A stretch of DNA of 53,806 nt from a virus: the IMG/VR virus record IMGVR_UViG_3300020122_000296, positions 1 to 53,806 of that record, one strand, 5' to 3'. The notes under the pieces were generated by a model. That model did not search any database, was not told where the DNA came from, and worked only from the letters and a program-made list of their open reading frames with translations. A program made the translations under genes and the position numbers. How positions within the stretch are numbered: the first letter of the stretch is position 1; the number at the start of each line of letters is the position of its first letter. This document shows, piece by piece, positions 1,603 through 53,806 of the stretch.

Positions 1603-4600
1603 GTGCCAGTTGACTTCCTAGAGGCCCCGCTTCCGGAAACGGCGCCAGAGACGCCGGCTGCTACTCCTCCAATCCAGTTCCAGCCAGGCGGAATCGATTT
1701 TCTGCCCGCCGAGGAGATCGCAAAAAGTGCCGTCAATATCGGTGTTGGGCTCCCTCAGGCCGTTAATCGGCTCCTCACAAATCCGGCTGTAGCAGCATCC
1801 TCCGAAATGGGCCGAGCGGCTGCCCAACAGGAAAGGGCAGATCAGGAACGAATGCAGCAAGCCCGATACATTGCTGGCGCGGGCCCATCGGCCGGTTTGG
1901 CGTTGATACCCCCTGAGGCCACAAAACAGGCTTTGGCTTACGCGCCGACCATTCCCGGCCGGATGCTCAATGCTTTCATGCGGCAGGCGGCCATGGACCC
2001 GGGCACAGGCGTTCACCCGCCGACGCCGCAAGCCTTTGGTGAAACCGAGGCTGAGTATGAGCAGCGGAAGCAGTACCCAATGGGAGCTCCCGGCGAACCG
2101 CTCTACATACCGCAAACGGACAATCCAAGCGACTTTCAGAAATTGGCGATGCAGGCCTCCACCATCAATGACCTGCTTGCCATTCCTATCGGGGTGACTC
2201 GCACCGGCGGCAAAGTGCTACTGGCCAGCATGGTCCCCGGGATTATTGGCCAGGTGAACGAGATTGCCACTGGCCCGGGTGATGCCAGGGATAAGCTCGA
2301 AAAGGCAAAGGCTTTGATTATCCCTGCAGCTATCGGGGTTTTTGCTTCCCGACCTCGAGGCGCTCGCCTATTCCCTGAGCGGCTTGGTCCGGAGGCTGAT
2401 ATCGGTACCCCGGTTTATCCGCCCATGGAATTCAGTGGCGCCGCGCTCCCCGGCAGGCCTGCAGGAGCAATCCCTCGAGGCGGCCCGGCGGGTGTTGGCC
2501 CGGGCTACCCGATTGTCCCGCGTGCGGCCGAACCGGTTGGCCCGCAATTCCCACGCCGCGGCGCGCCGATTGAGGTACCGGGAACGGCCGCCGGACCCGC
2601 ACAAACTGTTCTCGAGGAGATCCGTGCCAATGATGCGCGCACTATTCCACAAATTCAGGAGCTCTTTCCGCAACTCACTCGAGAGCAAGCTCGAGTCTAT
2701 CGCAACCAAGTTTGGGGCGCCGCGGTTAGCGATGTGGGTGTCCGAGTTTCGCCGGCCGTGCCGAGGCCTTCTCCGATGGGTCCTCCCACTCCGAGAGCCG
2801 AGGCGCCGCCGGAGGCTCCCAGGACCCCTACTACTGAGGAGCAAATCGCTGCCCGAGAAGCTCCTGAGGTTGCAGCTCGCCGCTCAGCTCTCGAGCAGCA
2901 GATTATCACCTGGGAGCGAGAGCTCGAATTTGCTCAAAAGCGCGGAGATGCTCGAGCGCAGCAGGCGGCGGTCGATAAACTCCTCGAGCTCAGACGTCAA
3001 TATGAGGGTCCTCAACCACCCGCCAAGCAACCCATCACGCCTAAACAGCCGGTACCTGGCGTGCCTCGAGGCTCTTTCCCGCCTGAGGTACCAGCAACGG
3101 CCGCCCAACCGCGGGAAACTGTCCTCGCAGAAATTCGACGGGCTAACGCTCGAACGCGCGCCGAAATCCAAAAGCTTTTTCCAGCTCGTAACCTCACGCG
3201 GGAAGAAGCTGCAGCACTGAGGGATCAGGCCTGGGGCAAACAACCGCCGGAAGAGCCACCCGCGGCACCGCCGGCAGCGCCAGCACCCAAAGAGCCTACC
3301 CCTCCCGCTCCTGCAGCGCCGTCAGCCGCAAAGCCGGAAATTGCAACGCGCTCAACCAGCCCGAACAATAACCCATTGGGCGATCCGATGGGGACTACCT
3401 ATCACGCTACGCCTGAGGATTGGGCCCAATGGCAGAAGCTGATGGAGCAGCGCAAGGCGCTCAACTCAGACCCGAACAAGACTGTTCAACAGAAATTCCA
3501 GCAGGGCGCCGAGCTCAGCCAGGCGATCGAGGACCTGAAAAACAAATACGGCGGGGCGCCGCCTAAAGAGCCAAAGGTCGGTGCTCCTCCTGTTACCGGT
3601 TCACCGGACGATCTTGTTCCTGCTCTCAAGCCAAAAGAGGGCGAAGTCATTCAGGGCCAAAAGGGCAACGTCCATGATGATATTTACAAAGCTCAGGGCG
3701 ATATCGAAGGCAAGCTGCTCAGAGTTGGGCAACCGGAGCACGGATTCTGGAACTCGAAGCTAAAGAAATTTCAGACGCGCGATGAAGCAGCAGCCTACCT
3801 GGGAGAAAAAGATCCGCTCCATTCCGAGCGGCTTATCGAGCTTCAAAAGAAGGTTGCGCCACCCGAGCCGACTGCAACGCCGGCAGCGGCCGCTCCACCT
3901 GCAGAGGCCCCGCCGGCGGCGCCGGAAAAGCCTAGCACGATCGGGGAAACCCCTCTCGCCGGCAAAACCCTTGGAGAGTGGGAAGCGGTCAAGGATGCCT
4001 CGCAACTTCCCCGAGGGGACGCGCGCGCCGAGCTCGCCAAGTATTTAGCGGTACCCAACCAGCCAAGCCGGATCCTGCAGGCCCTGGCCAACAAAAAGCG
4101 CACCCGCGAGATTCACGCGCCTCCGGCCGAGGTTGCACCGGTTCTATCAGGCGAACTCGCCTTGCGCTTTGGCGATTGGGGTCCTGATGGCAAATTGCAT
4201 TACAGCAATAAAGTAATAGGGGTACCTTCCTTGGAAGATGCCGCCCGTAAATGGAATGAGATTCGAGAGAAGTCAGGAGCGGGAGCAAGCGAATCTCCGG
4301 TTGTAGTGGTCGTTAATACCAAAACGGGTGAACACGTAGCGAAGGTCAGTTACAACGGCAGATTATGGGACGCGCAAGGCAAAGAAATCCAGCCAGAGCC
4401 GAAAACCGCTAAGGCCGAGCCTACCGCACCCGCCGAAGCTCTCCCGCCAACATTGGCCAGTCTTTGGACTGAGTATGACGAAGGCGGGAAGATGACTGAG
4501 CGCGATCTCTTGCAACACGTTCTGAACATGGAGCCGGAAAATCTTCCACCGGCACTTGCAAGAGCAGCGGCCAAGTACCGAGATGCGGTTGAGGAAGATT

Positions 4601-7600
4601 TCAGCATGGCGGGCCGTGGTGATGTTGAGCCTGCTCAAGACCGGTTCATGGCCGAATTTGAGAAAGCGGCTGGAAAGGAAAAGCCGAAAACTGAAACGAA
4701 ACCCGCCGAACCTGCAACACCTACTCCTGTTTCTGAAACGAAACCGCCTGTTAGTGCAACACCGGCGGCAGGGGCAGCCAAAGCGCAAGCCGAGGTCAGC
4801 AAAGTTGCGGCGACCGAAGGCCAGCGACCGGCGAAGGATGTTAAGCAGGATTTGATTGATGGGCTACAACAGGCGCTTATGAAAGCGCCGTCGAAAGAGG
4901 AAATTGACGCGGTTCAAAAGCCGGGCACGAAAACCTTTGATGCCGATAAATGGCCAGAGGACAAACCGAAAACCGTAACGATTGACATTCCCGGCGATGG
5001 TGTTTTCACGGTTCCTAACACGATTGAGGCACTTTCCGAGGTACTGGATCGTGCTCGGAAATTAAAGACAGATGCAGGCAAACCTGAGAAGGTTTCGAAA
5101 AAAGCTATCAAGGCCAGTGAGGGAGCGATTCGAAAGACCGCTGGCACTACGCCTACCCCGGAACAGCCACCCTCTGACCTCGGCCCCACTGGCGGCACTG
5201 GCCCCGGCACTCCATCAGCAGAACAGGGCCCCGATCCGGTTGTGCTCGACCTCAGGACCGGCAATCCGCTCTTCAATTCCCTACAGCGGAAGTACCAGAA
5301 CTTTTTCACCGGGCTCAAGCAGCTCTGGACGCGCCATCCCGCCAAGCTCGATATCATGGGCTTGTCCAACGCGGCGAATAACCTTCCGCGGATTTACGGG
5401 CAGCAGGCCGGAAACTCCCTCAGGCTCGGCGCTACCGAGGCCGATTTGAAAGCGGCGACCATGCTCATGCAGTCGCTCAAGATGAGTGGCGACGGCCTTT
5501 CGGTCGAGGATGCTGAGCGCCTCGGGAAGCTCGAGTTTGCTGACGACCCGCAAGGCTACCTCAGGGATAAAGAGAGCCAAATGTTCACCACGGCCCAACG
5601 CTTCCTCCACCAAGGCAAGAAGCTCGAGGCCGCGGCTGCTCTCGACGCACACCGGGCTTACAAGGATGCCGCGGACAATTTCAATCGCTTGCGTCCCCTG
5701 GCTGAGAGGGCCCGCCAGAAATTCGATCGCCAGTTTGGGCGGGAGCAAGCCTCAGGCCTGGATACCGCTTACGAGAATTGGTACGTGCCTCAACGTCACG
5801 ATCTCGATCTCTTTGTCAGTCCCAATCGGCCGATCGTGCTCGGCGATTCCAAAGGCGGCGGCGGCGCCCAATTCCGCAAAGCCAAGTTTTACGAGGACTA
5901 TGCCAGCGCCATCGAGGCCGGCTGGATCCCTCGCTCTCTCAACATTGCTGACCTGCTCGAGCACCGGGTAGCTTCCGGCGAGCGCATGATTTTCAACAAG
6001 GGCTTCTTTGATCAGATGCGCAGTATCACTGACCCGGTCGATCAACGGCCGGTTGTCATCGATATTCCCCGGCGCACCATTCAAATGCCGGATGGCACCA
6101 CGCGCAGCCAAGAGTCAATCCCGCACGGTTATACCAAGATGGAGGTCAGCCCAGGCGTAAACGTCGCAGTCCATGAGGGCTACTCCAGGCTGGTTAATGC
6201 GCTCACTGCCAGAAGTCAGCTCGCAGAGTCGGCGGTCGTGGGCACGCTGCAGGACATTGCCGCCGTCGAAAAGCATCTGATGCTGGCTCTGGATACGTTC
6301 CACCTGTCGCGCGTGCTCCAGGCCGAATTCTTCCTCACCGGCAAAGTCAGCCTCGGCCAGCGCCAGCGCATCGGCCGCGCTTTGGTCGAATACAGCGCCG
6401 AGGATTTCGACCGGGCAGTCAAGGCCGGCGAACTCACTCAGGAGATGGTTGACTACATGCGCAAGCCGCAGCCCATGGAGGTTCACGGTAAGACGGTTAA
6501 TGTGAGTCCCAAAAACCTCGTCATGTTCGGCGCCAGGCAGGGGCTCAATATCGGCCGCATCGGCGACGCTCTTTACCGCGATTGGCTGCGCAACATGCCG
6601 ATCACCGGCGAGATAAACAAATTCGTTTTCGACAAGGTTTCCCGCAGTGCAATCGCAAATGGCTTTCTCGCCGAATTTGAGCGCGTTGCCAAAGCGAACC
6701 CTGATCTCACCGGCGCCCAAGTGGCAAAGCAGGTCGCGCGCGATATCAACGTCCTCTTTGGCAATCTCCAAAAAGAGAGCATCTTCCGCAATCCTTCCCT
6801 GCGCTCGCTGACCCAAGTGCTTTTCCTGGCGCCGCAGTGGGTTGAATCTCTGGCCAGGCGTGAGACTCGAGGTGTCCTCCAGTTTGGCCAGGCTGCGGCC
6901 GATATCCCCAAAGCCATTTCCGAGGGCCGTCTGCCGCGTTTGGGCACCGTGGGTAAAGGTGTCGGTACCGCCCTGGCCGGCTACTTCGCCGGCACTCAGA
7001 TCCTGAATCTGATAACCCGCGGCAAATTCACCTTCCAGAACCCGGAGGCGGGCCACAAGCTGGACGCCTGGATCCCCGGCGGGCAAAATGGCTTCTTCAT
7101 TTCCCCGCTCTCGGTCTTTGGCGAGATCACCCATGACATTCTGCGCTACGCCGAGACCAAACCCGACTTCGCTACTGCCGTCCAGCAAATCGGGATGAAC
7201 AAGTTAGGGCCGCTCGGTCGGTTCCTCTACGTGCTCGCCAGCGGCCGGGACCCGATGACGGCTGAGAAGCTTGTCGGCACTGGCCGGCGGGCTACCCGCG
7301 CCGCCATGACTGCGGTACCGGTACCGATCACCCTTTCGCAGCCTTTGCGCCTGGCGGGCTCAAAGCTGGCCCCGGGAGTGATATCCCCGCCTGCCCCCGG
7401 CGCCGTCGAGCGACAGGGCCTGGCCTCCATCGGCTTTAAGACTGAGCCGGTCGGCACGGCCCAAAGCCAGATTTATCACTTGGCCGAGAAGTGGAAGAGC
7501 CAGTCAGGCAACGCCAAGTACGAGGCTGAGGTCGAGCGCCGGCTGAAAGAGGACTTTGGCCCAAGTGATTACCGGGATCTGCGCTCTGCTCTTACCCGGG

Positions 7601-7839
7601 ACGATCCAAAAGCGGCGCGCGCGGCGTATCAGGAGCTGCGCAGTGAGGGAAAAACTCCCAAGACCATCCGGCAAACCTTTCAGCATCCCCATCCTTTCAC
7701 CGGGAGCGGCCAGGCCGAGTCCGCTTTCAAGCGCACGCTCAGCGATGAGGACCGGGACCTTTACGATCGGGCCCTCGAGGAGCGCCGGGACCTCTACCGC
7801 AAGCTGCAGGAAATGTTACAATCAACTGAACCAGAATAA
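1603..7839 (+). CDS. Giant virion/ejection protein, 2,078 aa
   Basis: This is the largest gene in the window, with a GTG start 4 bases after the previous stop. The N-terminal ~1,200 residues are Pro/Ala/Lys-rich linkers around small helical modules. One module of about 40 residues occurs twice (near residues 333 and 504): TVLxEIRxxNART, then EIQxLFP, then LTREEA and RxQxWG, which looks helix-turn-helix-like. From about residue 1,220 the sequence becomes ordered and helical, with a hydrophobic GTALAGYFAGTQILNLI stretch near residue 1,790. Size, modular linkers and location at the end of the late operon resemble the internal/ejected proteins or polyvalent-type proteins of short-tailed phages. 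No lytic transglycosylase or protease motif was recognised, so the assignment is by analogy only. Confidence 0.85.
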   Translation: MPVDFLEAPLPETAPETPAATPPIQFQPGGIDFLPAEEIAKSAVNIGVGLPQAVNRLLTNPAVAASSEMGRAAAQQERADQERMQQARYIAGAGPSAGLALIPPEATKQALAYAPTIPGRMLNAFMRQAAMDPGTGVHPPTPQAFGETEAEYEQRKQYPMGAPGEPLYIPQTDNPSDFQKLAMQASTINDLLAIPIGVTRTGGKVLLASMVPGIIGQVNEIATGPGDARDKLEKAKALIIPAAIGVFASRPRGARLFPERLGPEADIGTPVYPPMEFSGAALPGRPAGAIPRGGPAGVGPGYPIVPRAAEPVGPQFPRRGAPIEVPGTAAGPAQTVLEEIRANDARTIPQIQELFPQLTREQARVYRNQVWGAAVSDVGVRVSPAVPRPSPMGPPTPRAEAPPEAPRTPTTEEQIAAREAPEVAARRSALEQQIITWERELEFAQKRGDARAQQAAVDKLLELRRQYEGPQPPAKQPITPKQPVPGVPRGSFPPEVPATAAQPRETVLAEIRRANARTRAEIQKLFPARNLTREEAAALRDQAWGKQPPEEPPAAPPAAPAPKEPTPPAPAAPSAAKPEIATRSTSPNNNPLGDPMGTTYHATPEDWAQWQKLMEQRKALNSDPNKTVQQKFQQGAELSQAIEDLKNKYGGAPPKEPKVGAPPVTGSPDDLVPALKPKEGEVIQGQKGNVHDDIYKAQGDIEGKLLRVGQPEHGFWNSKLKKFQTRDEAAAYLGEKDPLHSERLIELQKKVAPPEPTATPAAAAPPAEAPPAAPEKPSTIGETPLAGKTLGEWEAVKDASQLPRGDARAELAKYLAVPNQPSRILQALANKKRTREIHAPPAEVAPVLSGELALRFGDWGPDGKLHYSNKVIGVPSLEDAARKWNEIREKSGAGASESPVVVVVNTKTGEHVAKVSYNGRLWDAQGKEIQPEPKTAKAEPTAPAEALPPTLASLWTEYDEGGKMTERDLLQHVLNMEPENLPPALARAAAKYRDAVEEDFSMAGRGDVEPAQDRFMAEFEKAAGKEKPKTETKPAEPATPTPVSETKPPVSATPAAGAAKAQAEVSKVAATEGQRPAKDVKQDLIDGLQQALMKAPSKEEIDAVQKPGTKTFDADKWPEDKPKTVTIDIPGDGVFTVPNTIEALSEVLDRARKLKTDAGKPEKVSKKAIKASEGAIRKTAGTTPTPEQPPSDLGPTGGTGPGTPSAEQGPDPVVLDLRTGNPLFNSLQRKYQNFFTGLKQLWTRHPAKLDIMGLSNAANNLPRIYGQQAGNSLRLGATEADLKAATMLMQSLKMSGDGLSVEDAERLGKLEFADDPQGYLRDKESQMFTTAQRFLHQGKKLEAAAALDAHRAYKDAADNFNRLRPLAERARQKFDRQFGREQASGLDTAYENWYVPQRHDLDLFVSPNRPIVLGDSKGGGGAQFRKAKFYEDYASAIEAGWIPRSLNIADLLEHRVASGERMIFNKGFFDQMRSITDPVDQRPVVIDIPRRTIQMPDGTTRSQESIPHGYTKMEVSPGVNVAVHEGYSRLVNALTARSQLAESAVVGTLQDIAAVEKHLMLALDTFHLSRVLQAEFFLTGKVSLGQRQRIGRALVEYSAEDFDRAVKAGELTQEMVDYMRKPQPMEVHGKTVNVSPKNLVMFGARQGLNIGRIGDALYRDWLRNMPITGEINKFVFDKVSRSAIANGFLAEFERVAKANPDLTGAQVAKQVARDINVLFGNLQKESIFRNPSLRSLTQVLFLAPQWVESLARRETRGVLQFGQAAADIPKAISEGRLPRLGTVGKGVGTALAGYFAGTQILNLITRGKFTFQNPEAGHKLDAWIPGGQNGFFISPLSVFGEITHDILRYAETKPDFATAVQQIGMNKLGPLGRFLYVLASGRDPMTAEKLVGTGRRATRAAMTAVPVPITLSQPLRLAGSKLAPGVISPPAPGAVERQGLASIGFKTEPVGTAQSQIYHLAEKWKSQSGNAKYEAEVERRLKEDFGPSDYRDLRSALTRDDPKAARAAYQELRSEGKTPKTIRQTFQHPHPFTGSGQAESAFKRTLSDEDRDLYDRALEERRDLYRKLQEMLQSTEPE

Positions 7840-25229: not shown

Positions 25230-27050
25230 GTGGCTACCAAGAGAATCTACGGACTAGAATGGCCTGAGTCGACAGACCCCCTCGAAGTCGAGTTTTTCTT
25301 CATCAAAGCCGGCGGGTACCATAACGAAAACGGGAAGGTTTACGGCCGCGGCAAATTCTACCACACGAAAGCCGCCATCTCCCTGATCTGGCCGGATGAC
25401 GATCACCACAGATGGAGCGACCTAGCGCTAAAGCGAAAATGCGAGAACGATATCGTCGTTTACATGGGGTCGAGCGACTCTGGCAAAACCTACTTTAGCG
25501 GGCGTTACATTCTGGTCGATTATTGGGCTAGTCCGGACAATACCCTCTGGATGGTTTCCTCCACCGAACTGCGCGGCGCCGAGCTGAGGATTTGGGGCAA
25601 ACTAAAAGAGCTCTTGAACCGGGCTCGCGAGCGCTACCCCTGGCTGCCGGGCCGGGTGCTCGAGAGCAAAACCTGTATCACGACTCAGGATATCACGTTG
25701 GATGGGAGCGAAGCTCGAGTGATGACCAAAGGGATCATCTTCATCCCCTGCAAGTCCGGCGAGAATTGGGTAGGCCTGGGAGCTTACGCCGGCATTAAGC
25801 CCACCAAAAACGGCCGCCTTCGCCACTGCGGCGATGAAGTTTCGTTCATGGAGCGCTCGTTTCTACAGGCGTACGCCAACTGGTTTGGAAAACCCAATTT
25901 CGAAGGGATTTTGAACGGCAATCCGATTGAGTTGGATGATTGCCTGTGCGTTGCGGCCGAACCGATGGGAGGATGGGAAACGTGGGAGGATTCGAAGAAA
26001 ACTCAGGAATGGCGCTCAAAGTGGTATGGCGCCTTGGTGATTGCCTTTGACGGCCGGGACTCACCTAATTTCGATTTTCCAGCCAACCTGCCCCCGCGGT
26101 ACGATTACCTTATCAGCCGTAAAAAGACCGATGCGGTTGCCCGGGCTGAGGGCGAGGAGTCACAGCTCTACTGGATGCAGTGTATCGGCAAGCCGCGCCC
26201 AGGTGCTGAGAAATTCAAGATCTTCACCAAACGCGATTGCGAGCTCGCCGGCGCTTTTGACGATGTTATTTGGGAAGCGGCTCCCACGCTCAAGATCGGC
26301 GCGTGCGACGCTGCCTATGGTGGCGAGGGCGGGGACCGGTGCGTGTTCGAGTACATCGAATGCGGCCGCGCGGTCGGAGGGGCCAACATCATCAAGTTTC
26401 ACCCGCCGGAAATCGTCCCCATTAATACCGCTCTTGCTGAGAAACCGGATACTCAGATTGCCCGCTGGTGCAAAAGCCGGTGCGAGGGTTATGGGGTGCC
26501 GGCAAATTGCTTTGGTTTTGACGGCCGCTCGACTCTCGCACTGGCCTTTGCGGCCGTGTGGAGCGCGGAGGTAATCGTTGTCGATTTTAGTGGTCCGCCT
26601 TCGGACCGGCCAGTATCCCAGGAGCATTGGATTTACGATGCCAAAGAGAAAAAGAAGCGGCTCAAACGCTGTAACGAGCACTATTCGAAATTCGTTACCG
26701 AGCTTTGGTGGGCCATCCATTACCTCCTGCGCGGCAAGCAAATCCGCCATCTATCGCATGAGGTTGCCGATGAGGGCAGCAAACGGATCTGGTACCCAAC
26801 CAAGGGCGAGCCGATCAAAATCGAGATCGAGAGCAAGCCCGAGATGAAAAAGCGGGTGCAGCGCTCGCCGGACTTGACGGATGCTCATGTTACCGGCATC
26901 GAAGTAGCCCGCCGGCATGGATTTACGATCGACAATATCAAAGACGCCAGCCTCGTAGAGAAAGAAGATGACTGGCTCAAAGATCAACAGGACCTCCACC
27001 GTAGGCGCATGCAAAAGCATGAGCTGAAGTACCGAAATAACTGGATATGA
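25230..27050 (+). CDS. terL: Terminase large subunit
   Basis: 606 residues, GTG start. ATPase domain: Walker A GSSDSGKT (80-87) and a Walker-B-like LRHCGDEV (D202, E203). Nuclease domain: GACDAAYGGEGG (D360), FDGRS (D431) and SPDLTDAH (D551), the three metal-binding acids of the RNase-H-like fold. The enzyme cuts phage DNA and pumps it into the head through the portal. First late gene of the long plus operon; ATGA overlap with the methylase downstream. No small subunit is recognised next to it. Confidence 0.95.
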   Translation: MATKRIYGLEWPESTDPLEVEFFFIKAGGYHNENGKVYGRGKFYHTKAAISLIWPDDDHHRWSDLALKRKCENDIVVYMGSSDSGKTYFSGRYILVDYWASPDNTLWMVSSTELRGAELRIWGKLKELLNRARERYPWLPGRVLESKTCITTQDITLDGSEARVMTKGIIFIPCKSGENWVGLGAYAGIKPTKNGRLRHCGDEVSFMERSFLQAYANWFGKPNFEGILNGNPIELDDCLCVAAEPMGGWETWEDSKKTQEWRSKWYGALVIAFDGRDSPNFDFPANLPPRYDYLISRKKTDAVARAEGEESQLYWMQCIGKPRPGAEKFKIFTKRDCELAGAFDDVIWEAAPTLKIGACDAAYGGEGGDRCVFEYIECGRAVGGANIIKFHPPEIVPINTALAEKPDTQIARWCKSRCEGYGVPANCFGFDGRSTLALAFAAVWSAEVIVVDFSGPPSDRPVSQEHWIYDAKEKKKRLKRCNEHYSKFVTELWWAIHYLLRGKQIRHLSHEVADEGSKRIWYPTKGEPIKIEIESKPEMKKRVQRSPDLTDAHVTGIEVARRHGFTIDNIKDASLVEKEDDWLKDQQDLHRRRMQKHELKYRNNWI

Positions 27051-34540: not shown

Positions 34541-35727
34541 TCCCGGTCTTTGACCTGGGACTGCAGCCTCTGGCCAACGATTTCTGCGCCGAAGAGGAAG
34601 AGCGCGCCGGCTTTGCACCGTTAAAGGTTTTGCTCTGCCCGAACTGCCATCTGGCTCAGCTTTCGGTCACCGTCGATCCTACTATTCTCTACCGCCGGTA
34701 CCTTTACGTCACCAGCACCAGCAAAACGATGCTGGACCATTTCCAGTATCTTTGGGAGCTACTACCTATCAATGAGCCAGTGCCCCGAGTACTCGAGATT
34801 GGCAGCAACGATGGGCTATTCCTTGAATTTATCAAACATCAGGGCTGCGAAGTAGTAGGGGTGGATCCCTCCTTAAATCTGTCGAAAATCTCAGGCGAGC
34901 GCGGGGTTTGCACTTACAACGGATTTTGGAATCAGGCCTTTGCTGAGGCTAACCCGGGGATTAGGCATTTTGAGCCGGATTTCATTTTCGCCCGGCATGT
35001 GTTCTGCCATGTCGACGATTGGCGCGATTTCATCGCCGGCATCGAACTCGTAAGCACGGTCGAAACTCTCACCTGTATCGAAGTCCCTTATGTTGGCGAC
35101 CTCCTCGAAAAGGGAGAATTCGACACTATCTATCATGAGCACACTTCCTACCTCAGCGTAAAATCGATAGCCAAACTCCTCGAGGGAACAAAGCTCAGGC
35201 TGCATCGGATTGAGAAGCTGGCGATTCACGGCGGGGCCCTGCTCGTTATGATCCGCCACAAAGACTCGAAAGATGCGCCGCACAAGAGCGTTTCTGAATA
35301 CTTCCGCAATGAGAACGTGGGGCTCGAGGCTTGGCGGGACTTTGCTGTTAGATGCCAGGGCAAGATAGAAGCGCTCCGATCTGTTGTCCGCAAGGCCAAG
35401 AGCGAAGGCAAGAGGGTAGTCGGTTACGGCGCCTCGGCCAAGAGTACCGTTTGGTTGAACGCCTGTGGGTTCACCCGAAAAGAGATCGACTACATCACAG
35501 ATAACACCATGGGAAAGCTGTACAAGCTCAGCCCGGGCAACGATATCCCGATCGTGAATTCGGACAATCTGCACTACGATCAGCCGGACTTCGCGATCAT
35601 GTTTTGCTGGAATTTCGCCGAGGAGGTCATTGCCAAAGAGAAGATTTTCCTTGAGAAAGGCGGCAAATGGGTGATACCTCACCCAAATATCAAAGTAATC
35701 GATGGGAGCGGTGAAGTGGTCCTGTGA
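34447..35727 (+). CDS. C-methyltransferase of deoxysugar type
   Basis: 426 residues. N-terminal zinc domain with C8, C11, C64, C67 (CRAC, CPNC) and DLGLQPLANDF; SAM domain VLEIGSNDGLFLEFI (115-129); C-terminal domain with GYGASAKSTVWLNA and ITDNTMGKLYKLSPGNDIPI. This three-part layout (PF08421, methyltransferase, PF08484, from memory) is that of the TylC3/NovU sugar C-methyltransferases. They methylate a dTDP-keto-sugar in deoxysugar synthesis. No dTDP-sugar pathway genes are nearby, so the donor probably comes from the host. Confidence 0.9.
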   Translation: MYKPHVRCRACGYGPVPSPGGTKCGTSSERLIPVFDLGLQPLANDFCAEEEERAGFAPLKVLLCPNCHLAQLSVTVDPTILYRRYLYVTSTSKTMLDHFQYLWELLPINEPVPRVLEIGSNDGLFLEFIKHQGCEVVGVDPSLNLSKISGERGVCTYNGFWNQAFAEANPGIRHFEPDFIFARHVFCHVDDWRDFIAGIELVSTVETLTCIEVPYVGDLLEKGEFDTIYHEHTSYLSVKSIAKLLEGTKLRLHRIEKLAIHGGALLVMIRHKDSKDAPHKSVSEYFRNENVGLEAWRDFAVRCQGKIEALRSVVRKAKSEGKRVVGYGASAKSTVWLNACGFTRKEIDYITDNTMGKLYKLSPGNDIPIVNSDNLHYDQPDFAIMFCWNFAEEVIAKEKIFLEKGGKWVIPHPNIKVIDGSGEVVL

Positions 35728-38027
35728 AATTTAGCAAGGTCAACTTGGTCGAACAGGTGGTATGGAATATGCGCCTGGCCGACCTGCCACGCGCGGAAAA
35801 CCGGACCATTATTAACGAGCTCTTCAACGGAGATCCCCCTTTCGATGAGGATACGGCCGAGGAAGATCAGATCCAGATCAACCGCAACGACCTGACCGGC
35901 CCAAACGTGATGACCCAATCCCGCCGGCAGTGGATGCAGGCCCTCGTCACCAAACCGGGAAACAAATTCTCAGTCGCGCTCGACAGCGGCCCGGCCAAGA
36001 AACGCCGGGAGTGGAGCCATGCCATTACCCGCAATGCCAATCGGGTGCTCAATCGTTCACGCTCCTACATGGAGCAAGGCCGAGCAGCCGGCGCCCAAAC
36101 GGTGTTGCATGGCATAGGTCCCTCCATCTGGACAACTCGCCGCGGAGTGCTCTGCAAGCCCTTGCCGATCGGAAGTGTGATGATTCCGAGCGAAACGGAC
36201 GTCGATTTCGAGAACCTCGACCATATTGCGTTTTTCAACGAGTGGACCCCGGCGCAGCTCTCCAAACTGGTTTACGGCAACCGGCGGGATCCAGGCTGGA
36301 ACCTCGAGCTCGTCAAAGCTCAGTGGAAGTACGTAGTAGAGCAGGTTCAGAAGCAGCCCAATGCCACGGCTTTCCAGTACATGCCTGAGCGCATTGAGGA
36401 GCTGATCAAGCAGGACATGGGCTTTTGGGGTTCTGACGCCGTGCCTACCATTGACGTTTGGGACTTCTATTTCCGCCAGGACGATAACGGTTGGTACCGC
36501 CGGGTGTTCCTCGATTGGGGAGTAGAGGCGGGAGTCAAAGACCTACCCAAATCCAAGAATGGTGATAAAAACGATCTGTTTGGAGGATTCCTCTACACCA
36601 GCGGCAAGCGGATTTTCGCGCGGGACATTAACGAGTTTTTCCATTCCCAACTCGGCGATTGCTCGGCTGTTGCCCCATTCAAGGTTCATTCGATTCGATC
36701 GCTCGGCTGGATGCTTTGGGGAGTGTGCGACCTCGAGACTCGGTTGCACTGCAAATTCAGCGAGGCTCTCTTCGAGCAACTCATGTGGTTTTTCCGGGTA
36801 GCCAGCGGAGGCGACCTTACCCGCCTGCGCAAAGCGGACTTCTACCATTTTGGCGTGATTCCCTCGAACGTGGACATGGTAAAGGGCAATGAGCGCTACG
36901 TTCCAGACGCCAACCTGATCAACGCCGGCTTTACCCGGTTCAATCAGTTAATCAGCCAGGCGGCCTCTTCCTTCACTCAGGACTTTTCCGGCGGCGAGAG
37001 CGGTAAGGAAATGACCGCTACCGAAACGATGGCCCGGGTCAATCAGGTCAATGCTCTGGTGTCCGGCTTGCTCACGCTGGCTTACACGTACGAGGAATTC
37101 AAAGACCGTGAAACGATGCGCCGGCTATGCATCAAAAATAATCCGGATCCACTGGCCAAAAAGTTCTACCTGATGTGCATGGAGGATAAGGTTGATCCCG
37201 AAGTACTCGACGTCGACAAAATGGATATTGTCCGCGAGCGCTCGATGGGTGGGGGAAACAAAACCCTCGAGATGGCCATGGTTCAGTTCCTGCAGGGCAT
37301 TCGAAAGAACCTGGGCCCGCAAGGGCAACGCCAAGTCGATCATATTTCCATTGAATCGGTTACCGATGACGCGCGCCTGGCCGAGGACCTGGCCCCGGTC
37401 GAGCAGGAAAAGCACGTTTCCAATTCCGAGCACGATGCGCAGCTCGCTACCGATCGCATACTCCGCGGCCTTCCTTTCCAAGTGCGGCCGGACATGGTTT
37501 TCGAGGATTATGTCAAAGTGTGGCTGCAGGATCTCACGGTGCTTGTCACGCAGAAGCAGCAAGCCGGCGGGATGGCTACACTGGACGAAATCAAAGGGTT
37601 CCAGGCCCTGAGCAATCAGATTACCGAATTCCTCAAGATCATGGGGACGGATCCGGAGCTCAAGGAACGGGTTCGCGAGTACCAGCTCGCTCTAACCAAG
37701 CTGCTCAATCTGGTGAAAGCGATGTTCCAGCGGCTCATGCAGCAAATGAAAGCTCAGGCTCGAGCAGGCGGCAACGGCGAACAAGCCAAAGAAGCGGCGA
37801 AGATCCGCGCTATAGAGCTCGCGGCTCAGGTCAAAGCGAAGAACTCAACCGAAAGCAACGCGCAAAAGAACGCGCAGCGGCAAGTCAGCTTCGAGTTGAA
37901 AGAGCAACAGCAGGAGCGGGAGCACCAAGCCACCATGCGGAGGCTCGACCTCGAGCATCATTACAACCTTTTGACCGATGCCTTACGGGCAGCCGGCCAA
38001 AGTGACAGCAAACCAGAAAACCAGTAA
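35724..38027 (+). CDS. Portal protein
   Basis: 767 residues, ATG in an ATGA overlap with the C-methyltransferase. NVMTQSRRQWMQALVTKPGN near the start, GIGPSIWTTRRGVLCKPLPI, FNEWTPAQLSKLV, GESGKEMTATETMARVNQVN and a long helical, coiled C-terminus (KEQQQEREHQATMRRLDLEH) fit a large podovirus-like portal. It forms the dodecameric entry ring for DNA and docks the terminase. Order is normal except that about 8.7 kb of other genes separate it from terminase. Confidence 0.9.
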   Translation: MKFSKVNLVEQVVWNMRLADLPRAENRTIINELFNGDPPFDEDTAEEDQIQINRNDLTGPNVMTQSRRQWMQALVTKPGNKFSVALDSGPAKKRREWSHAITRNANRVLNRSRSYMEQGRAAGAQTVLHGIGPSIWTTRRGVLCKPLPIGSVMIPSETDVDFENLDHIAFFNEWTPAQLSKLVYGNRRDPGWNLELVKAQWKYVVEQVQKQPNATAFQYMPERIEELIKQDMGFWGSDAVPTIDVWDFYFRQDDNGWYRRVFLDWGVEAGVKDLPKSKNGDKNDLFGGFLYTSGKRIFARDINEFFHSQLGDCSAVAPFKVHSIRSLGWMLWGVCDLETRLHCKFSEALFEQLMWFFRVASGGDLTRLRKADFYHFGVIPSNVDMVKGNERYVPDANLINAGFTRFNQLISQAASSFTQDFSGGESGKEMTATETMARVNQVNALVSGLLTLAYTYEEFKDRETMRRLCIKNNPDPLAKKFYLMCMEDKVDPEVLDVDKMDIVRERSMGGGNKTLEMAMVQFLQGIRKNLGPQGQRQVDHISIESVTDDARLAEDLAPVEQEKHVSNSEHDAQLATDRILRGLPFQVRPDMVFEDYVKVWLQDLTVLVTQKQQAGGMATLDEIKGFQALSNQITEFLKIMGTDPELKERVREYQLALTKLLNLVKAMFQRLMQQMKAQARAGGNGEQAKEAAKIRAIELAAQVKAKNSTESNAQKNAQRQVSFELKEQQQEREHQATMRRLDLEHHYNLLTDALRAAGQSDSKPENQ

Positions 38028-40819: not shown

Positions 40820-42151
40820 ATGGCAGCAGCAGCATCTCCCCCGGCTGCAGCACCGGCCTCCCCGGCCGCTCCTGCAGTAGCACCAGCACCAGCAACACCA
40901 GCAACTCACGTCCAACCGCCGGGCGAACAGCCAGAGTCAGCCTGGCTCTCCGAAGTAGGCGCGGACATTGAGGAATTCGATCGGACTGGAAATCAGCCTC
41001 AGAATCGACCGCGGCAAGGTGCGGCCCCCAAGCCCGCGGCGCCGCCCCCTGATGACGATCTCGAGGTACCAGCGCCGCCAGAAAAGCCAGCCGCGGCCGC
41101 CAGGCCAGGTGAACAGCCGGTACCGCCGGCCGCCGAGGACGAAACCCGTTTGCCGGCGCCGCAACTGCGCAAGGCTCATGCCGAGCTCAAGAAAAAGGTC
41201 AACACCGAGTATGAGCCAGAGCTCCAACGCTTGCGCGCTCAGGTAAAGCAGCTCGAGGAGCGGCCGGCGGCTGAACCGGAAGAAACCAAAACCCGGCTTA
41301 CTGAACTGCAGAAGCGGGTCGAGGAGCAAGAAGCGCACATACGCTTTGTCGACTACCAGAACAGCGAGGACTATCTCAAAAACTACTGGCAACCGTATCA
41401 GGATGCCTGGAACGAAGCGCTTTCAGACCTGAACGAGCTCGAGGTCGAAAACCGGTTCGGTACCCGGCGGCCCGCCACCCAGGCCGATATTAACCATCTC
41501 GCCAGCCTCAAACTTGGCGAGCGGCGCAATGCGGCCAACGCGATGTTTGGTGACTCGGCCGATGACGTCATGGCCCATGTTCGAAAGATCCTCGACCTCT
41601 CACAAAAACAGTCGAAAGCTCTGGCGGATAACAAAGCCAACAGCGCAAAACTGGCTCAGGAACGCCAGAATCAAGCGCTCGATCAGAACAAGCAGCGGAT
41701 CGCTACCTGGGAAAGGCAGAATTCCAGCTTGGCTACCAAGTATCCCGACTGGTTCGCGAAAAACGCTCAGGACCCAACGGGCAGCACGCTCCTCGACAAA
41801 GGTTTCCTTCTGGCCGATCTGCTTTTTGGCGAGGTCAAAGAGCCGCAATGGGGTTTGCTCCCAAAATCCTTCCAAGATGACCTCCGCGCCAATGGTGGGA
41901 AGCTCTCACCGGAAGGGCGGATCCGTTTGCATGCGGTTTTGAGGAATAAGGCGGCCGCGTTCGACCGGATTGCCTACCAACTCAAAGAGGTAAAGGCTGA
42001 GCTCGCCGAGGCTAAGAAAGCCCTGTCTGAATATGAGGACTCAGAGCCACCGGTTGGGGGCAGCGCTCCTCGCCGGGCTGGTGCGCCGGCGGTTGGCTCT
42101 GTCGATGAGGCAAACGCCGAGCTCGAGGCGCTCGACCGGGTAGGCCGATAA
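40820..42151 (+). CDS. Putative scaffolding protein
   Basis: 443 residues. The first 110 are Ala/Pro-rich; 120-180 and 250-310 are coiled-coil (KAHAELKKKVNTEYEPELQR, LTELQKRVEEQEAHIRF, ALDQNKQRIATWERQNSSL); 370-410 helical again (IAYQLKEVKAELAEAKKAL). No protease motif. Size, helix content and position between portal and capsid are those of a scaffold. TAATG coupling to the next gene. Confidence 0.75.
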   Translation: MAAAASPPAAAPASPAAPAVAPAPATPATHVQPPGEQPESAWLSEVGADIEEFDRTGNQPQNRPRQGAAPKPAAPPPDDDLEVPAPPEKPAAAARPGEQPVPPAAEDETRLPAPQLRKAHAELKKKVNTEYEPELQRLRAQVKQLEERPAAEPEETKTRLTELQKRVEEQEAHIRFVDYQNSEDYLKNYWQPYQDAWNEALSDLNELEVENRFGTRRPATQADINHLASLKLGERRNAANAMFGDSADDVMAHVRKILDLSQKQSKALADNKANSAKLAQERQNQALDQNKQRIATWERQNSSLATKYPDWFAKNAQDPTGSTLLDKGFLLADLLFGEVKEPQWGLLPKSFQDDLRANGGKLSPEGRIRLHAVLRNKAAAFDRIAYQLKEVKAELAEAKKALSEYEDSEPPVGGSAPRRAGAPAVGSVDEANAELEALDRVGR

Positions 42152-42489: not shown

Positions 42490-42523
42490 GCGCGTGTTCC
42501 GTCAACCCCTCAAAATCCGATGA
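42326..42523 (+). CDS. Small basic protein overlapping in another frame
   Basis: 65 residues; TGA overlaps the GroES start (ATGA). PKKMKISRPYWTAKLSRSGN and IIINVERTVHHSDKALSLDR look like a beta-rich basic protein. It shares 164 bases with the previous gene in a different frame. ATG at 42350 is another possible start. Which frame is used, or both, cannot be settled by reading. Confidence 0.5.
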   Translation: MKSIQPKKMKISRPYWTAKLSRSGNQIIINVERTVHHSDKALSLDRVAFSFPVNRRVFRQPLKIR

Positions 42524-42855
42524 TTCGTCCATTCAAGGGCAAGGTACTGCTTTTTATCTACCCCTATGAGGACACCAGCGCCGGCGGCATCTTCATCCCT
42601 GAGGACGCTCGAGGCGGATCAGTTTTGGAAAAATCCAAGCCTCGGAGGGCCCGCGTGATGGCTGTAGGAGAATGGAAAACCATTCAAAAAGACGGCAAAA
42701 CATTTCACATTTTGCCCGATTTCAAGCAGGGGGATCTTGTAATAGTCAGCGATTACGCAGGCACCAAAATGAGCCGCGGAGTGGATGAAAACCTACGGCT
42801 GTGCGGTATCGATGACGTGCTTGCAATCCTCAAGGAAGAGCCCAATACTGCCTGA
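42520..42855 (+). CDS. GroES-like co-chaperonin
   Basis: 111 residues. MIRPFKGKVLLFIYPYEDTS, AGGIFIPEDA, RRARVMAVGEW, PDFKQGDLVIVSDYAGTKMS and DVLAIL match the Cpn10 fold: beta barrel with the mobile loop (TSAGGIFIP). Phage co-chaperonins (T4 gp31 type) replace host GroES to fold the capsid protein. It lies directly before the capsid gene. No GroEL gene is present, so it would use the host GroEL. Confidence 0.85.
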   Translation: MIRPFKGKVLLFIYPYEDTSAGGIFIPEDARGGSVLEKSKPRRARVMAVGEWKTIQKDGKTFHILPDFKQGDLVIVSDYAGTKMSRGVDENLRLCGIDDVLAILKEEPNTA

Positions 42856-43115: not shown

Positions 43116-44681
43116 ATGGCTCTTTCTTGCAGGCAGTTTACAGATTTTCTGAGTCGCCGGACTGAGCATCTGGACGATTACATCATTCGCTCACTTCACC
43201 CCGTCGACACATGGGTAGGCCATGTGGGCATCGGCCGCTTCAAAGCCGAGGACGGTGTTGAACATACTTTCGACCGGTTCGAAAACGTGTTCCCTGACCT
43301 CCGCGGTGCCTGGGAAGATGTTACGGCCGGCTCCTGTGTTGGTCAGCCTTGCGATCCTTCGGTCACAAAAATTGGCCTGGGCTTCACGCGGGACAGCTAC
43401 AAGCTGCAGCGCAAGTCGTATGAAACGGACCTGTTCTGTTTCGACCAAATTCTTTCGGCCGATCGCGCCAAGCAGCAGTTTGCGCACGTCATTCGCACGC
43501 TGCGCCGAGCTTCCTCGCTGATTACCTCCCACCGCTTCCGGACCGAGGGTTTGCGTATCGCCAAATATAAGTGGGCATGTGCCAACAACGGCCTGCAGGC
43601 GATTACCGCCACCTGGGACCCGACGATGACGTTCCTTTCGGTTTCCGCGCTCCCAACCTCGAAGATTGGCGCTCGCCACCTGCAGCGGCGCGTCCAGCCG
43701 CAGATCCGCGAAGGCGCTCTCGGCGAGGATATCAACCGCGGCACTCAGCCCATGCTCGAGTTTGTGACGGATATGGATGAGGTCTGGAATATGGTCGAAG
43801 GCAATCCCGAGCTGACTGACCACTGGCGTTTTCGTGACTTCGCCGATGCGGAGAAGTACCACAAATACGGATGGGTGGGCCAACTCGGCAATTATGGCCT
43901 CCGTGCCGATTGGACCGCGCTCCGGTTCAACGTCCTGGGGCCCGATCCGGCCGTGCCGGGCAACACGCTCCTGCAGCTTGTGTTCCCCTACACCAACGTC
44001 AGCGCTACCGAGGGTTTGAAGGAATCCGTAAACTCGGACTTCGACAATGCCCGGGTGCAGCTCAACTTCATCTGGCACCGCAAAGCGATGACCTCGCTGG
44101 TTCGCGATACGACCGCCATCAATCCGGAAATGCCTTTCGCGATGCGCGATTTTGCCGGGAAATGGCAGTTTGTGATGGACAACATCACTTGCGGCCAGGA
44201 CGTAAACGGCAATCCGATCGCCGTCGACAACACCCGCCGGAACAAGGGCAAATTCATTGCCGATTGGGCGTACGCCACCCAGGCCGAGTATCCCGAATTG
44301 GCCGAGGCCTTCTTCGCTCTACGTGAGCCGGCCTGCATCGTGGATATCCCGCCCTGTGCGAACGATCCGGGGTACCCGCTGCAGAATTACGCAAGCGCCA
44401 ATGCGCTTTGCCCGTCAAACGTGGTGGTCCTCACCTTCACGCCTGTTCTCGATGTTGTGACCAACACGTATGAGGTTGCGCGCGACTCGATCACCTGTAA
44501 CGGGCTCAACGTGCTCAACTCGCCGATCACTGGCACCAGCACCCTTGCGGCGCTGGTAGCTCAGCTCAACTCGACCTCCGGTACCTCCGCTATGGGTACC
44601 TGGGCAGTTGCATCCGGCACAACGATCACGTTGACCGGAAGTGTCTGTCAGACAGTGGCAATCCCCTGGCTGATTGACTGA
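43116..44681 (+). CDS. Major capsid protein
   Basis: 521 residues. MALSCRQFTDFLSRRTEHLD begins it. No N-terminal scaffold domain is seen. It is a dense alpha/beta protein (RRVQPQIREGALGEDINRGT, GWVGQLGNYGLRADWTALRF, NIT, KGKFIADWAYATQAEYPELA) with a Thr/Ser-rich beta C-terminus (about 440-521) that could be an added surface domain. Position after scaffold and GroES, and strong expression context, support a capsid protein. Family by sequence is not certain. Confidence 0.8.
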   Translation: MALSCRQFTDFLSRRTEHLDDYIIRSLHPVDTWVGHVGIGRFKAEDGVEHTFDRFENVFPDLRGAWEDVTAGSCVGQPCDPSVTKIGLGFTRDSYKLQRKSYETDLFCFDQILSADRAKQQFAHVIRTLRRASSLITSHRFRTEGLRIAKYKWACANNGLQAITATWDPTMTFLSVSALPTSKIGARHLQRRVQPQIREGALGEDINRGTQPMLEFVTDMDEVWNMVEGNPELTDHWRFRDFADAEKYHKYGWVGQLGNYGLRADWTALRFNVLGPDPAVPGNTLLQLVFPYTNVSATEGLKESVNSDFDNARVQLNFIWHRKAMTSLVRDTTAINPEMPFAMRDFAGKWQFVMDNITCGQDVNGNPIAVDNTRRNKGKFIADWAYATQAEYPELAEAFFALREPACIVDIPPCANDPGYPLQNYASANALCPSNVVVLTFTPVLDVVTNTYEVARDSITCNGLNVLNSPITGTSTLAALVAQLNSTSGTSAMGTWAVASGTTITLTGSVCQTVAIPWLID

Positions 44682-49539: not shown

Positions 49540-51375
49540 GTGGCCAAAGAGACTGTTTTAGCCGATGCCACTTTCGATTTTTCGGGCGGGGTCAACTCTG
49601 ATGCCGTCACGACGATTCGAAGTGATCTGGTTACAAACGGGCTCCAACGCAATCAGCTCGCCTGGCTTTCCAATGGCACAACCCGCGGGGGGGCAATCTC
49701 CCCGCGGCCTGGCTACAACAAGCTGCTCGATTTAATCGCTACCGGGCTCTACCAGGGTGGGATCCTCTACGAGCCTATCCAAGAGGGAGATCCATACATC
49801 ATCTGCAGTGTATCGGGCCACATCATTAAGGCCCTGCTCAGCCCGCCCTACACTGTTACCGATCTCTCGGTTCAGTTTGGCTTAGTCAATCCGGCAACTC
49901 CTCCGGAAGTGTTCTTTGTGGAAGCGGAGGGAATTCTCTGCATCCAGGCTGGCGACTACTTCACTAATCCGCCTGGCACGCTGCCACTCTTTTACCGCTC
50001 GTCATTCGGAGGTCAACCGGAAGTGCTGCGGAGGTCGAACGGCCTTACAGGTAACGTCACCTACCCCAACATTAACGAGATTCCGGCTGCTACCTGCATG
50101 GTCTATTACCTCGGCCGATTGTGGTACGCTCAGGGCCGGAAATGGACCGCCGGCGATATTGTAGGCAATCAGGCCTCCGGTACCGCCCCTTACAATTTCA
50201 CCGATTCGGTTTTCAAGGTGACCGAAAACCCTCTGGCAGTTGGCGGCGATGGGTTTACCGTGCCATCCCAGGCTGGCGTTATCCGCGCAATGCGCTACAC
50301 CGCCAACCTCGACACTTCGCTCGGCCAGGGCCCGCTTTATATTTTCACGCGCAAGCAGGTTTACTCTTTCAATCCTCCGGTCACTCGAACCGCTTGGATT
50401 GCGGCCAATAACAACACTCAGCCGATCGTCACCGTGGCGCAGATCAATAACGGCGCCACCGGTGAGCGTGGGCTTTTCCATGTAAACGGCGATTTGTTCT
50501 ACCAGTCGCTCACTCCTGACGTCAGGACCTTGTTCATTGCAACCCGCTACTTCAAGCAGTGGGCTAACGTGGGCATCTCGAGAAACGTGCAAAGGGCGAT
50601 GCAGTTTGTTAATCGCGCGATCCAGCGCTACTGCCCAGGTGTGGATTTCGACAACCGCGGTCTCAATGGAACCCTACCCAAACAGACGGCCAACGGAGTA
50701 ATCTCTCAGGGCATTCTACCGCTCAACTTTGACGAGGTTTCGACGCTCGAGGAGCAGCGCCAGCCAGTGTGGGACGGAATGTGGGAGGGCATCGATGCTC
50801 TGCAGCTCTTCTCTGGTGACTTTGGCGGCCTGCAGCGCGCCTTTGCTCCGGTAGTCTCTCGCCAGGATGGGACGCTTGATATTTGGGAGCTCACCACTTC
50901 TCAGCGAACCGAAAATGGCGATAACCGGATCCTTTGGTATGCCGAATTTCCGGCGTTCACTTGGTCAGTGGCTGGATGGGAACTATCGCTCAAAGAGCTC
51001 ATGGGCGGCGAGCTCTGGCTCGACCGGGTTTCAGGTGAAATTGAGCTGCAGGTGTTTTACCGGCCGGATGCTGACCCTTGCTGGCACCCCTGGCTCAAGA
51101 CCGCCTTCTGCTCGACTCGGAATTGCGCCGAGGACGTCAACAACCCAATTTGCTACCCGACAGCGATTCAATACTGCGACGGGTACCAGTGGCCTTTTGT
51201 GCTTCCCAAGCCGCCAGAGCCGAGCGGCTGCCAGCCGATGATTTACAAGCGGCCGCGAGATCAGGGTTTCCAGTTTCAAGTCAAAGTGCAGGTCAAAGGC
51301 TATCTCCGGATCCGTGGTATAGTGCTCTATGCTCAAGAGAAGGAGCGCGGGATTTGGGAGGGGCTAAGGTGCTGA
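49540..51375 (+). CDS. Large beta-rich tail/neck structural protein
   Basis: 611 residues, GTG start 3 bases after the previous stop. ATFDFSGGVNSDAVTTIRSD then GLQRNQLAWLSNGTTRGGAI and repeated beta strands (GRLWYAQGRKWTAG, GLFHVNGDLFYQSLTPDVRT, LDIWELTTSQ) resemble phage structural proteins with a beta-propeller-like fold that sit at the neck or tail of short-tailed phages. No enzyme motif. The C-terminus has Cys-rich PDADPCWHPW and NPICYP. Confidence 0.75.
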   Translation: MAKETVLADATFDFSGGVNSDAVTTIRSDLVTNGLQRNQLAWLSNGTTRGGAISPRPGYNKLLDLIATGLYQGGILYEPIQEGDPYIICSVSGHIIKALLSPPYTVTDLSVQFGLVNPATPPEVFFVEAEGILCIQAGDYFTNPPGTLPLFYRSSFGGQPEVLRRSNGLTGNVTYPNINEIPAATCMVYYLGRLWYAQGRKWTAGDIVGNQASGTAPYNFTDSVFKVTENPLAVGGDGFTVPSQAGVIRAMRYTANLDTSLGQGPLYIFTRKQVYSFNPPVTRTAWIAANNNTQPIVTVAQINNGATGERGLFHVNGDLFYQSLTPDVRTLFIATRYFKQWANVGISRNVQRAMQFVNRAIQRYCPGVDFDNRGLNGTLPKQTANGVISQGILPLNFDEVSTLEEQRQPVWDGMWEGIDALQLFSGDFGGLQRAFAPVVSRQDGTLDIWELTTSQRTENGDNRILWYAEFPAFTWSVAGWELSLKELMGGELWLDRVSGEIELQVFYRPDADPCWHPWLKTAFCSTRNCAEDVNNPICYPTAIQYCDGYQWPFVLPKPPEPSGCQPMIYKRPRDQGFQFQVKVQVKGYLRIRGIVLYAQEKERGIWEGLRC

Positions 51376-51376
51376 T

Positions 51377-52534
51377 ATGGCAAATTTTCCGTGTGACAAC
51401 ACAATCATCTGCCCTTGCACTGATAACCCTTTGGGCAATTTCAGCTCCGAGGCGCCGGATCCCTTCGTCTATTACGGCTTTCGGCCGGTTCTTTGGAACC
51501 CCAACAATCCAATCGGCGGGCATCGTCCGCCGGCGCCGCCAATCTACTACGCGGCCGATTGTGCGGGCTTCTGCACGTCGACCCTCTCGCAAGAGGACGC
51601 GGACCTCTGCGCCGCGCGCCAGGCTTTCATCTGTTCGCACACGCCACCTGGGGGCGGGCCTCCGCAGCTCTTTTTTAACCAGCCTCAGAGCTGCTCACTC
51701 CCATGCGGAAACGGCTCCTTTTTCGTGTGGCAAGTGCCCGGCGGGGCTTTCGTGAATGTCAGCCAGGCGGCCGCGGACAATCAGGCCCAGGCCTACGCCT
51801 GCCAGCAAGCCGCTTTGCACGCCTTCTGTCTCAATGACATTCCCAATGAAGCGGAAACCGTCACCGAATACGATGCGACCATTTTCGTAAACGGCGCCGC
51901 GCGCACCCCGGTTCACTTCCTTTTAGTTGCTGGCAGTTTGCCGCCAGGCCTGACGCTGACACCGGAAGGGCCCTTGAGCACATTCCTCCATGGGACCCCG
52001 ACGACAACCGGTACCTTCACTTTCACGATCGAGGCGGTCGATGCCATCGGGGTATTTGTCACCAAGCAGTACACGATAACGGTAACCTCGACCTGTTCTC
52101 AGTTCTGGACCTCCATAGCGGGCAACTGGACATTCCAATTCCAGGGAGCTAACAGCACTGGCTCGATCTCAGGCAATTTGCTGATCGTTTCCGCTTACAC
52201 CAAAAATGGCATCGATCTATTTGGCATTACGATTGCCAATAACGGTGTGAGCCCCCCGCTGAACCCGGTACTCACCGCTCAATTTCAATGCACCCTTACG
52301 GTAGTGCCTTTGGTGATTACAAACATAGGGCCCATCGGTGTTCTGCAAATTCAAATCGATGACGCCAACACCGCAGCAGTGTATTTCACTTTCACTGGCG
52401 CGCCCGGCGCACCTACTGTTTTTAATTTCACTTTGCCGGTAGGAGCAAAGCCCAGGGTGAGTGCTACCGTCACGCTCCAGAGCCCGGTAAACGGTTTCGA
52501 TTCTCAGTTGGCGTATGGGATCACACTCGGATGA
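51377..52534 (+). CDS. Structural protein with Cys-rich N-terminus and Ig-like domain
   Basis: 385 residues, ATG 51377. The first 160 residues have many Cys (TIICPCTDN, CAGFCTSTL, SCSLPCGNGS). Then AGSLPPGLTLTPEGPLSTFL and TPTTTGTFTFTIEAVDA, an Ig-like (He_PIG) domain. The rest is beta-rich with lipocalin-like repeats. Likely tail or surface adhesion protein. Confidence 0.75.
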   Translation: MANFPCDNTIICPCTDNPLGNFSSEAPDPFVYYGFRPVLWNPNNPIGGHRPPAPPIYYAADCAGFCTSTLSQEDADLCAARQAFICSHTPPGGGPPQLFFNQPQSCSLPCGNGSFFVWQVPGGAFVNVSQAAADNQAQAYACQQAALHAFCLNDIPNEAETVTEYDATIFVNGAARTPVHFLLVAGSLPPGLTLTPEGPLSTFLHGTPTTTGTFTFTIEAVDAIGVFVTKQYTITVTSTCSQFWTSIAGNWTFQFQGANSTGSISGNLLIVSAYTKNGIDLFGITIANNGVSPPLNPVLTAQFQCTLTVVPLVITNIGPIGVLQIQIDDANTAAVYFTFTGAPGAPTVFNFTLPVGAKPRVSATVTLQSPVNGFDSQLAYGITLG

Positions 52535-52572: not shown

Positions 52573-53628
52573 ATGCCGAATCGGCCAACCTTCTCGATGC
52601 TGCTCAACAGCCGTTTCCCGAAAGCGATTGGCCTCTGTGCCTCGGACCGATCTGGCGTGGCGGCTGCTGTGAACGAGTGTCAAGAGATTCTCATTGCGGA
52701 TCCGATGGCACCGGAGGAAGGATGGTACGGAAGTTACGTCCATGTGCTCTTCCAAGTGCAACAGGCAAACGGGCAAGCCTACATCGTTACGCCGCGAGAA
52801 ATCGCTCGAATCGACAGGCTGGATATCTGCACCCGCCCGCGCTTCCTCCGCGGCGCGGCCTACGAGTACCTCATGTTCGGCAACGGCAAACAGCCAAAGC
52901 CCTGCCAGACTTCATGCGCTACTACTCAGGGATTTGAACGGGACAACCTCCCGCTGCTTTATCCTTTTCCGTCGAGCGGCCCGCAAGGCATCCGATTCTT
53001 TCCATCGAATAACGCTGACCTGGGAAAGCTCATGCAGCTTCAAGGTACCGATCAGAACGGTAAAACCGTTTACGGTACCGACCCGGTAACCGGCGCGGCC
53101 ATCATTGGCGAGCAAGTCTCTCTGGCGCTGCCCTTCTCGACGGCCGCATTCAGCTACCAGCAGATCACCGGTCTGATGAAGGATGAAACCAACGGCCCGG
53201 TTTTGGTCTATGCCGTCGACTCCCAGGGCAACCAGACGCTTATCTCCCAAATGGCGCCAAACGAAACGGTTGCAAATTACCGGCAGTACTTCCTCAATGG
53301 CCTGCCCTGCAACTGCTCGAACCTGACCTGCAACACCCCGAGTGTTACCCCTATCCAAGTCGACGCGATGTGTAAGCTGGATTATATCCCCGTCGAAAAC
53401 GACAGCGACTACCTCACGATTCAATCGATACCCGCTTTGATTGAGGAGGGCCAGGCGCGCCGCTGGTCGACCATTGACGCGGCTCAGGCATCGAAGAAAG
53501 AAACAGATCGTCACGCTAACGCGCTACGGATTCTTTGCGGGCAGTTAGATCACTATTTCGGCAAGACCACCACTGCGATCGGCTTTAAGATTTTCGGCCG
53601 CAATCGGCTTCGGCCGCAACACGTTTAA
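52573..53628 (+). CDS. Tail/neck connector-like protein
   Basis: 351 residues. MPNRPTFSMLLNSRFPKAIG then CQEILIADPMAPEEGWYGSY and ITPREIARIDRLDIC-like VTPREIARIDRLDICTRP, YEYLMFGNGKQPKPC. C-terminal GLPCNCSNLTCNTPS. The pattern fits a phage tail or neck structural protein in the order neck, tail, internal protein. No enzyme motif seen. Confidence 0.75.
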   Translation: MPNRPTFSMLLNSRFPKAIGLCASDRSGVAAAVNECQEILIADPMAPEEGWYGSYVHVLFQVQQANGQAYIVTPREIARIDRLDICTRPRFLRGAAYEYLMFGNGKQPKPCQTSCATTQGFERDNLPLLYPFPSSGPQGIRFFPSNNADLGKLMQLQGTDQNGKTVYGTDPVTGAAIIGEQVSLALPFSTAAFSYQQITGLMKDETNGPVLVYAVDSQGNQTLISQMAPNETVANYRQYFLNGLPCNCSNLTCNTPSVTPIQVDAMCKLDYIPVENDSDYLTIQSIPALIEEGQARRWSTIDAAQASKKETDRHANALRILCGQLDHYFGKTTTAIGFKIFGRNRLRPQHV

Positions 53629-53631: not shown

Positions 53632-53806
53632 ATGCCAAGCACCCCAGGAATGGCGCCGGTTTTTAATAACTACTTTGCGACCTCCCCTTACTATGGCGGC
53701 GGATACCCAGGCAGCACCCAATTTTCGCCGTACACCTCCGCGAGCGAAGCGACGTCATTCAACCTCGGCTCAGGCGCCAATACTGAGGCGCTTACCGGCC
53801 AAATCA
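53632..53806 (+). CDS. Virion structural protein, 5' part (wraps to left edge)
   Basis: ATG 53632, 3 bases after the TAA of the previous gene. 58 codons (MPSTPGMAPVFNNYFATSPY, rich in Gly, Ser, Tyr, Pro) run open to the edge with one base left over. Together with bases 1-2 this makes the codon ACG, and then the frame of the gene at 3-734. The joined protein would be about 302 residues. Confidence 0.8.
   Translation, partial: MPSTPGMAPVFNNYFATSPYYGGGYPGSTQFSPYTSASEATSFNLGSGANTEALTGQI

Follow-up and report, generated by a model that had tools for sequence, protein, structure and literature searches.

The direct terminal repeats by which CheckV recognizes complete viral genomes ('DTR') are end overlaps that match assembler k-mer lengths, and the templates are circles broken at random places (CheckV, PMC8116208). 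Among described tailed phages, the closest point of comparison for the capsid reported here is provided by the N4-like phages (Schitoviridae), whose hallmark genes include the virion RNA polymerase (N4 gp50) (PMC10654107). Here we analyze the complete IMG/VR virus record IMGVR_UViG_3300020122_000296 (53,806 bp; the whole of it being the window of this study), which is almost certainly a tailed-phage genome in the form of one turn of a circular map, opened by the assembler inside a gene, with no overlap between its ends and with about 3 nt probably missing at the join.

The two ends of the record carry the parts of one open reading frame

At the right end of the record, an ATG at 53632, four bases past the stop (53628) of the upstream gene g52573, begins a plus-strand frame that stays open to the last base at 53806. 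At the left end, a startless plus-strand frame runs from base 3 to its stop at 732–734, and the next gene, g735, begins at 735. When 53632..53806 is joined to 1..734, the result is a frame of 303 codons (302 aa and the stop), hereinafter the seam gene, in which the codon for Thr59 spans the seam: its first base, a, together with codons 1–58, lies in the 5′ part (53632..53806), and the remaining cg through to the stop lies in the 3′ part (1..734). Inspection of the ORFs thus bore out the first-pass annotation, which had described a right-hand ORF open to the last base, a first ORF lacking a start from base 3, and a single uninterrupted ORF of 302 residues on joining; likewise, the run of late plus-strand genes that it placed from 25.2 kb through the junction to 8.25 kb was found to begin at 25,230, cross the seam, and end at 8,253.

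Agreement of frame is by itself weak evidence for such a join, because in this GC-rich DNA three of the six frames cross the seam with more than 100 aa free of stops. The annotation had put the probability of a chance match at one in three; its caution was right, but with several frames open the agreement is weaker evidence still, and both figures would favor a linear fragment whose ends lie in two different genes with frames that match by chance. The termini themselves show no exact overlap of at least 5 nt, no shorter one is apparent in the terminal bases, and the 53,806-bp record has no direct terminal repeat of at least 20 bp.

Related genomes carry the split gene as a single gene

Using the major capsid protein as query we recovered 77 IMG/VR loci (34–81% identity), and 15 related records, 14 of them of 50–57 kb, were examined over their whole length. 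In 14 of these 15 relatives one ORF matches the joined ORF, the exception being the distant G013, and in 13 relatives the BLAST alignments cross or closely flank residue 58/59. For example, alignments running across the seam cover residues 39–182 in G009 (56% identity), 41–195 in G004 (52%), 39–165 in G010 (48%), and 1–228 in G015 (39%); in G008 the BLAST alignment begins at residue 59, yet the ORF extends upstream and aligns there too. The 3′ part taken separately matches one ORF in relatives at 34–60% identity (tblastn). As the seam protein begins with ~40 low-complexity residues that do not align to homologues, the match upstream of the seam is supported by about 20 residues and by synteny. 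This synteny is well kept: the homologue of the seam gene directly follows that of g52573 (52573..53628, plus strand; a 351-aa virion-region protein with a homologue in 17 of 19 other records searched) in the same orientation, and the homologues of g735 (735..1598, plus strand; 287 aa), which is next in most relatives, and g1603 usually succeed it. The single ORFs in relatives and the kept gene order together indicate that the right end of the record leads into its left end. Comparison of the joined ORF with homologous phage proteins, which had been put forward in the first-pass annotation as a check, accordingly favors one gene over two in about 14 relatives.

The lengths and termini of the relatives point the same way. 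Eight of them bear exact end overlaps (104, 110, 123, 123, 123, 127, 127, and 127 nt), and two further ones, G011 and G013, imperfect overlaps. The eight with exact overlaps measure 52.2–56.6 kb, with which the 53.8 kb of the present record agrees, and on a common map the seams of the overlap-bearing relatives are scattered at 0.35–0.85 of the circle. Relatives of the same size are thus circularly permuted versions of one another with end repeats of the assembler type. A linear fragment ending in two unrelated genes is contradicted by the homologous single ORFs, the synteny over the ends, and a length equal to that of overlap-bearing relatives, and we consider it the least probable of the readings weighed here, to the point of being negligible. 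On the same three grounds, the complete phage genome with a circular map that the annotation proposed as probable is supported.

Further searches were directed at the seam itself and at its neighbors. A search with a DNA pattern spanning the seam matched two contigs, both unrelated, and yielded no further contig of this species that bridges the ends. Scans of viral contigs with single proteins found nothing for the 3′ part of the seam gene, g52573, or the terminase large subunit (TerL), and for g735 recovered one relative that was already known.

The record is one residue short at the seam

Around the seam the record reads ALTGQI-T-LNRQGQAAALGSRIPN, whereas relatives read AVTQYINQLNRQGQQAALRARIPG and similar, one residue longer. 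The seam lies in a 27-residue stretch with the same spacing in all 13 aligned homologues, and the record alone is one residue short. We slid the last 14 residues before the seam against the homologues at 18 offsets: these residues fit directly upstream of the seam, with a score of 8.2 for one residue missing (best of the 18), 0.4 for the next best offset, and −15.5 for none missing. Among 33,122 decoy 14-mers drawn from the record, none reached 8.2 at the one-residue offset, and 77 did so when the score was maximized over offsets. The spacing of the aligned proteins therefore suggests that about 3 nt (one codon) are probably absent between base 53806 and base 1. The smooth junction peptide described in the first-pass annotation is indeed in frame and free of stops; the join is nonetheless not exact, as every aligned homologue has one additional residue there.

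The short spacing could also mean that the circle is closed exactly and that the seam protein is truly one residue shorter than in relatives. The in-frame, stop-free joined sequence and the common occurrence of indels elsewhere in this protein are consistent with such a deletion; yet it would fall in a stretch of constant length in 13 of 13 homologues, and the sole gap coincides with the seam. Moreover, two other relatives that lack an end overlap are also short at their own seams: in G008 the seam cuts the g52573 homologue, which falls short by ~20 nt (estimated from the alignment), and in G010 it cuts a DNA methylase frame, short by ~10 nt (estimated from the usual spacing of methylase motifs). 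We hence regard exact closure as unlikely, and infer that the residue was lost in assembly rather than deleted in the phage. With no overlap between the ends and ~3 nt probably missing at the join, tests based on overlap would not flag this record as complete.

Circular map and virion DNA

A few bases apparently missing, together with the fact that G008, likewise devoid of an overlap, has its seam only ~1 kb away on the map, could also be taken as signs of a genuine terminus of linear virion DNA, such as a cos site with a lost overhang. Against this, the seam falls inside a conserved coding helix, relatives are continuous at the same DNA with their own seams all round the map, and the seams of G010, G012, and G014 lie elsewhere. 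A physical end is accordingly highly improbable, and we return to a circular map opened by the assembler. The assembler would have cut this map at an arbitrary point in a virion-region gene of ~303 aa, leaving no repeated k-mer, and the map itself might stem from a replicative form that is circular or concatemeric, or from permuted virion DNA. A circular map alone does not distinguish permuted virion DNA from other kinds of ends that would yield a circle on assembly. Such a map would be expected from permuted headful packaging, as well as from DNA that circularizes or becomes concatemeric in the cell. The scattered seams of the relatives are compatible with headful packaging, but they also reflect random cuts by the assembler.

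Virion, packaging, and recombination genes

The neighborhood of the seam gene is that of a virion block. Upstream of g52573 lie the tail/virion genes g49540 and g51377 (49540..52534, plus strand), whose order is conserved in relatives and the latter of which codes for a He_PIG Ig-like domain (Pfam). Downstream of g735 lies g1603 (1603..7839, plus strand), which encodes a giant protein of 2078 aa; its last ~870 residues are 52–60% identical in four relatives (tblastn), and the remainder is proline-rich and variable. The seam protein itself is mostly of low complexity with a helical center, and the structure predicted for a homologue was of low quality (pLDDT 48) and largely disordered, with no fold match in PDB. 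Its place among virion genes ahead of the 2078-aa giant suggests that it is likely a virion or DNA-ejection protein. Further upstream in the late run, four consecutive genes (45074–45466, 45470–45700, 46262–47464, and 47461–48423) start with a similar cysteine-containing motif (e.g., CxPADLVKAAKCFxCxPxxxR) and then diverge; this resembles an attachment domain duplicated among virion surface proteins. In several relatives whole virion blocks are inverted with respect to the capsid gene: G011 and G014 carry the g52573-to-g1603 block on the opposite strand, and G013, G015, and L027 have TerL and portal there, joined by the scaffold gene in G013 and G015. These arrangements may reflect either recurrent inversion or assembly error.

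The head and packaging genes, all on the plus strand, begin with TerL (25230..27050), assigned by a weak match to PHROG 2 (E 6.9e-4) and 32–56% identical in relatives. A probable portal protein (35724..38027; 767 aa) is suggested by its size and its position between TerL and the capsid gene; it had no database family match, and is 45–65% identical in close relatives. Between terminase and portal, the late run contains several genes resembling sugar or small-molecule methyltransferases (32321–35727), of the Methyltransf_24, FkbM-type Methyltransf_21, and C-methyltransferase Methyltransf_13/14 families. A probable scaffolding protein (40820..42151), with a coiled and charged sequence, is encoded just upstream of the capsid gene, a place kept in most relatives. 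Between this and the capsid gene sits a gene for a GroES-like co-chaperonin (42520..42855; PHROG 3188, Pfam Cpn10), in a position retained in several relatives. The major capsid protein (43116..44681; 521 aa) was assigned from its place and predicted fold. On the minus strand, genes at 11967–13193 and 13626–15278 code for a PD-(D/E)XK exonuclease adjoining an Mgm101-type (Rad52-like) recombination protein, and from this adjacency they are probably a phage recombination pair.

An uncultured lineage and its hosts

The record represents a tailed phage whose lineage is uncultured: tblastn against 50,697 phage records gave no match for TerL, portal, capsid, g52573, g1603, or the protein encoded at 40820, a search of plasmids with the capsid protein gave none either, and most proteins of the record are without a match in phage, plasmid, or family databases. 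We tentatively suggest, as a possibility somewhat short of even, a family-level uncultured lineage of 50–58-kb phages in which the capsid is N4-like, no virion RNA polymerase is detected, and whole virion-gene blocks have been inverted repeatedly with respect to the capsid gene. As for hosts, three capsid relatives (L167–L169; 36–40% identity) are found on short contigs of metagenome-assembled genomes (MAGs) labeled Pedosphaera, Nitrospiraceae, and Actinomycetota; these could be host hints or binning errors and, being spread over three phyla, are too little to name a host.

Comparison with N4-like phages and with genomes closed by terminal repeats

Any likeness to the N4-like phages would lie in the predicted fold of the capsid protein. 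In a Foldseek comparison with PDB, the nearest structures to the model were the N4 and DEV capsid proteins (E 2.8e-6, probability 1.00), with TM-scores of only 0.32/0.40 and a mean pLDDT of 66 for the model. The difference lies in a genome of ~54 kb in which no virion RNA polymerase was detected. The giant g1603 was considered as an N4-type virion RNA polymerase and set aside, as sequence searches gave no support: PHROG, Pfam, and PDB sequence searches returned no match. With the capsid, portal, and TerL proteins also unmatched by tblastn among phage records, the Schitoviridae hallmark genes were not recovered from this genome by sequence.

Closure of the record is a sound but ordinary assembly result, useful rather than surprising: it adds an essentially complete genome for an uncultured phage lineage, and a record without end repeats becomes usable as a complete genome. 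It also illustrates a way to recover complete genomes missed by the end-repeat test, namely to ask whether the two genes cut at the ends are one gene in relatives, with the reminder that joining in frame is not the same as joining exactly. Compared with the CheckV 'DTR' complete genomes, the present record differs in having no overlap, and so none of the repeat of at least 20 bp by which those are detected, and in probably having a gap of ~3 nt in its place; it is like them in being a circular map cut at a random place, as its relatives show.
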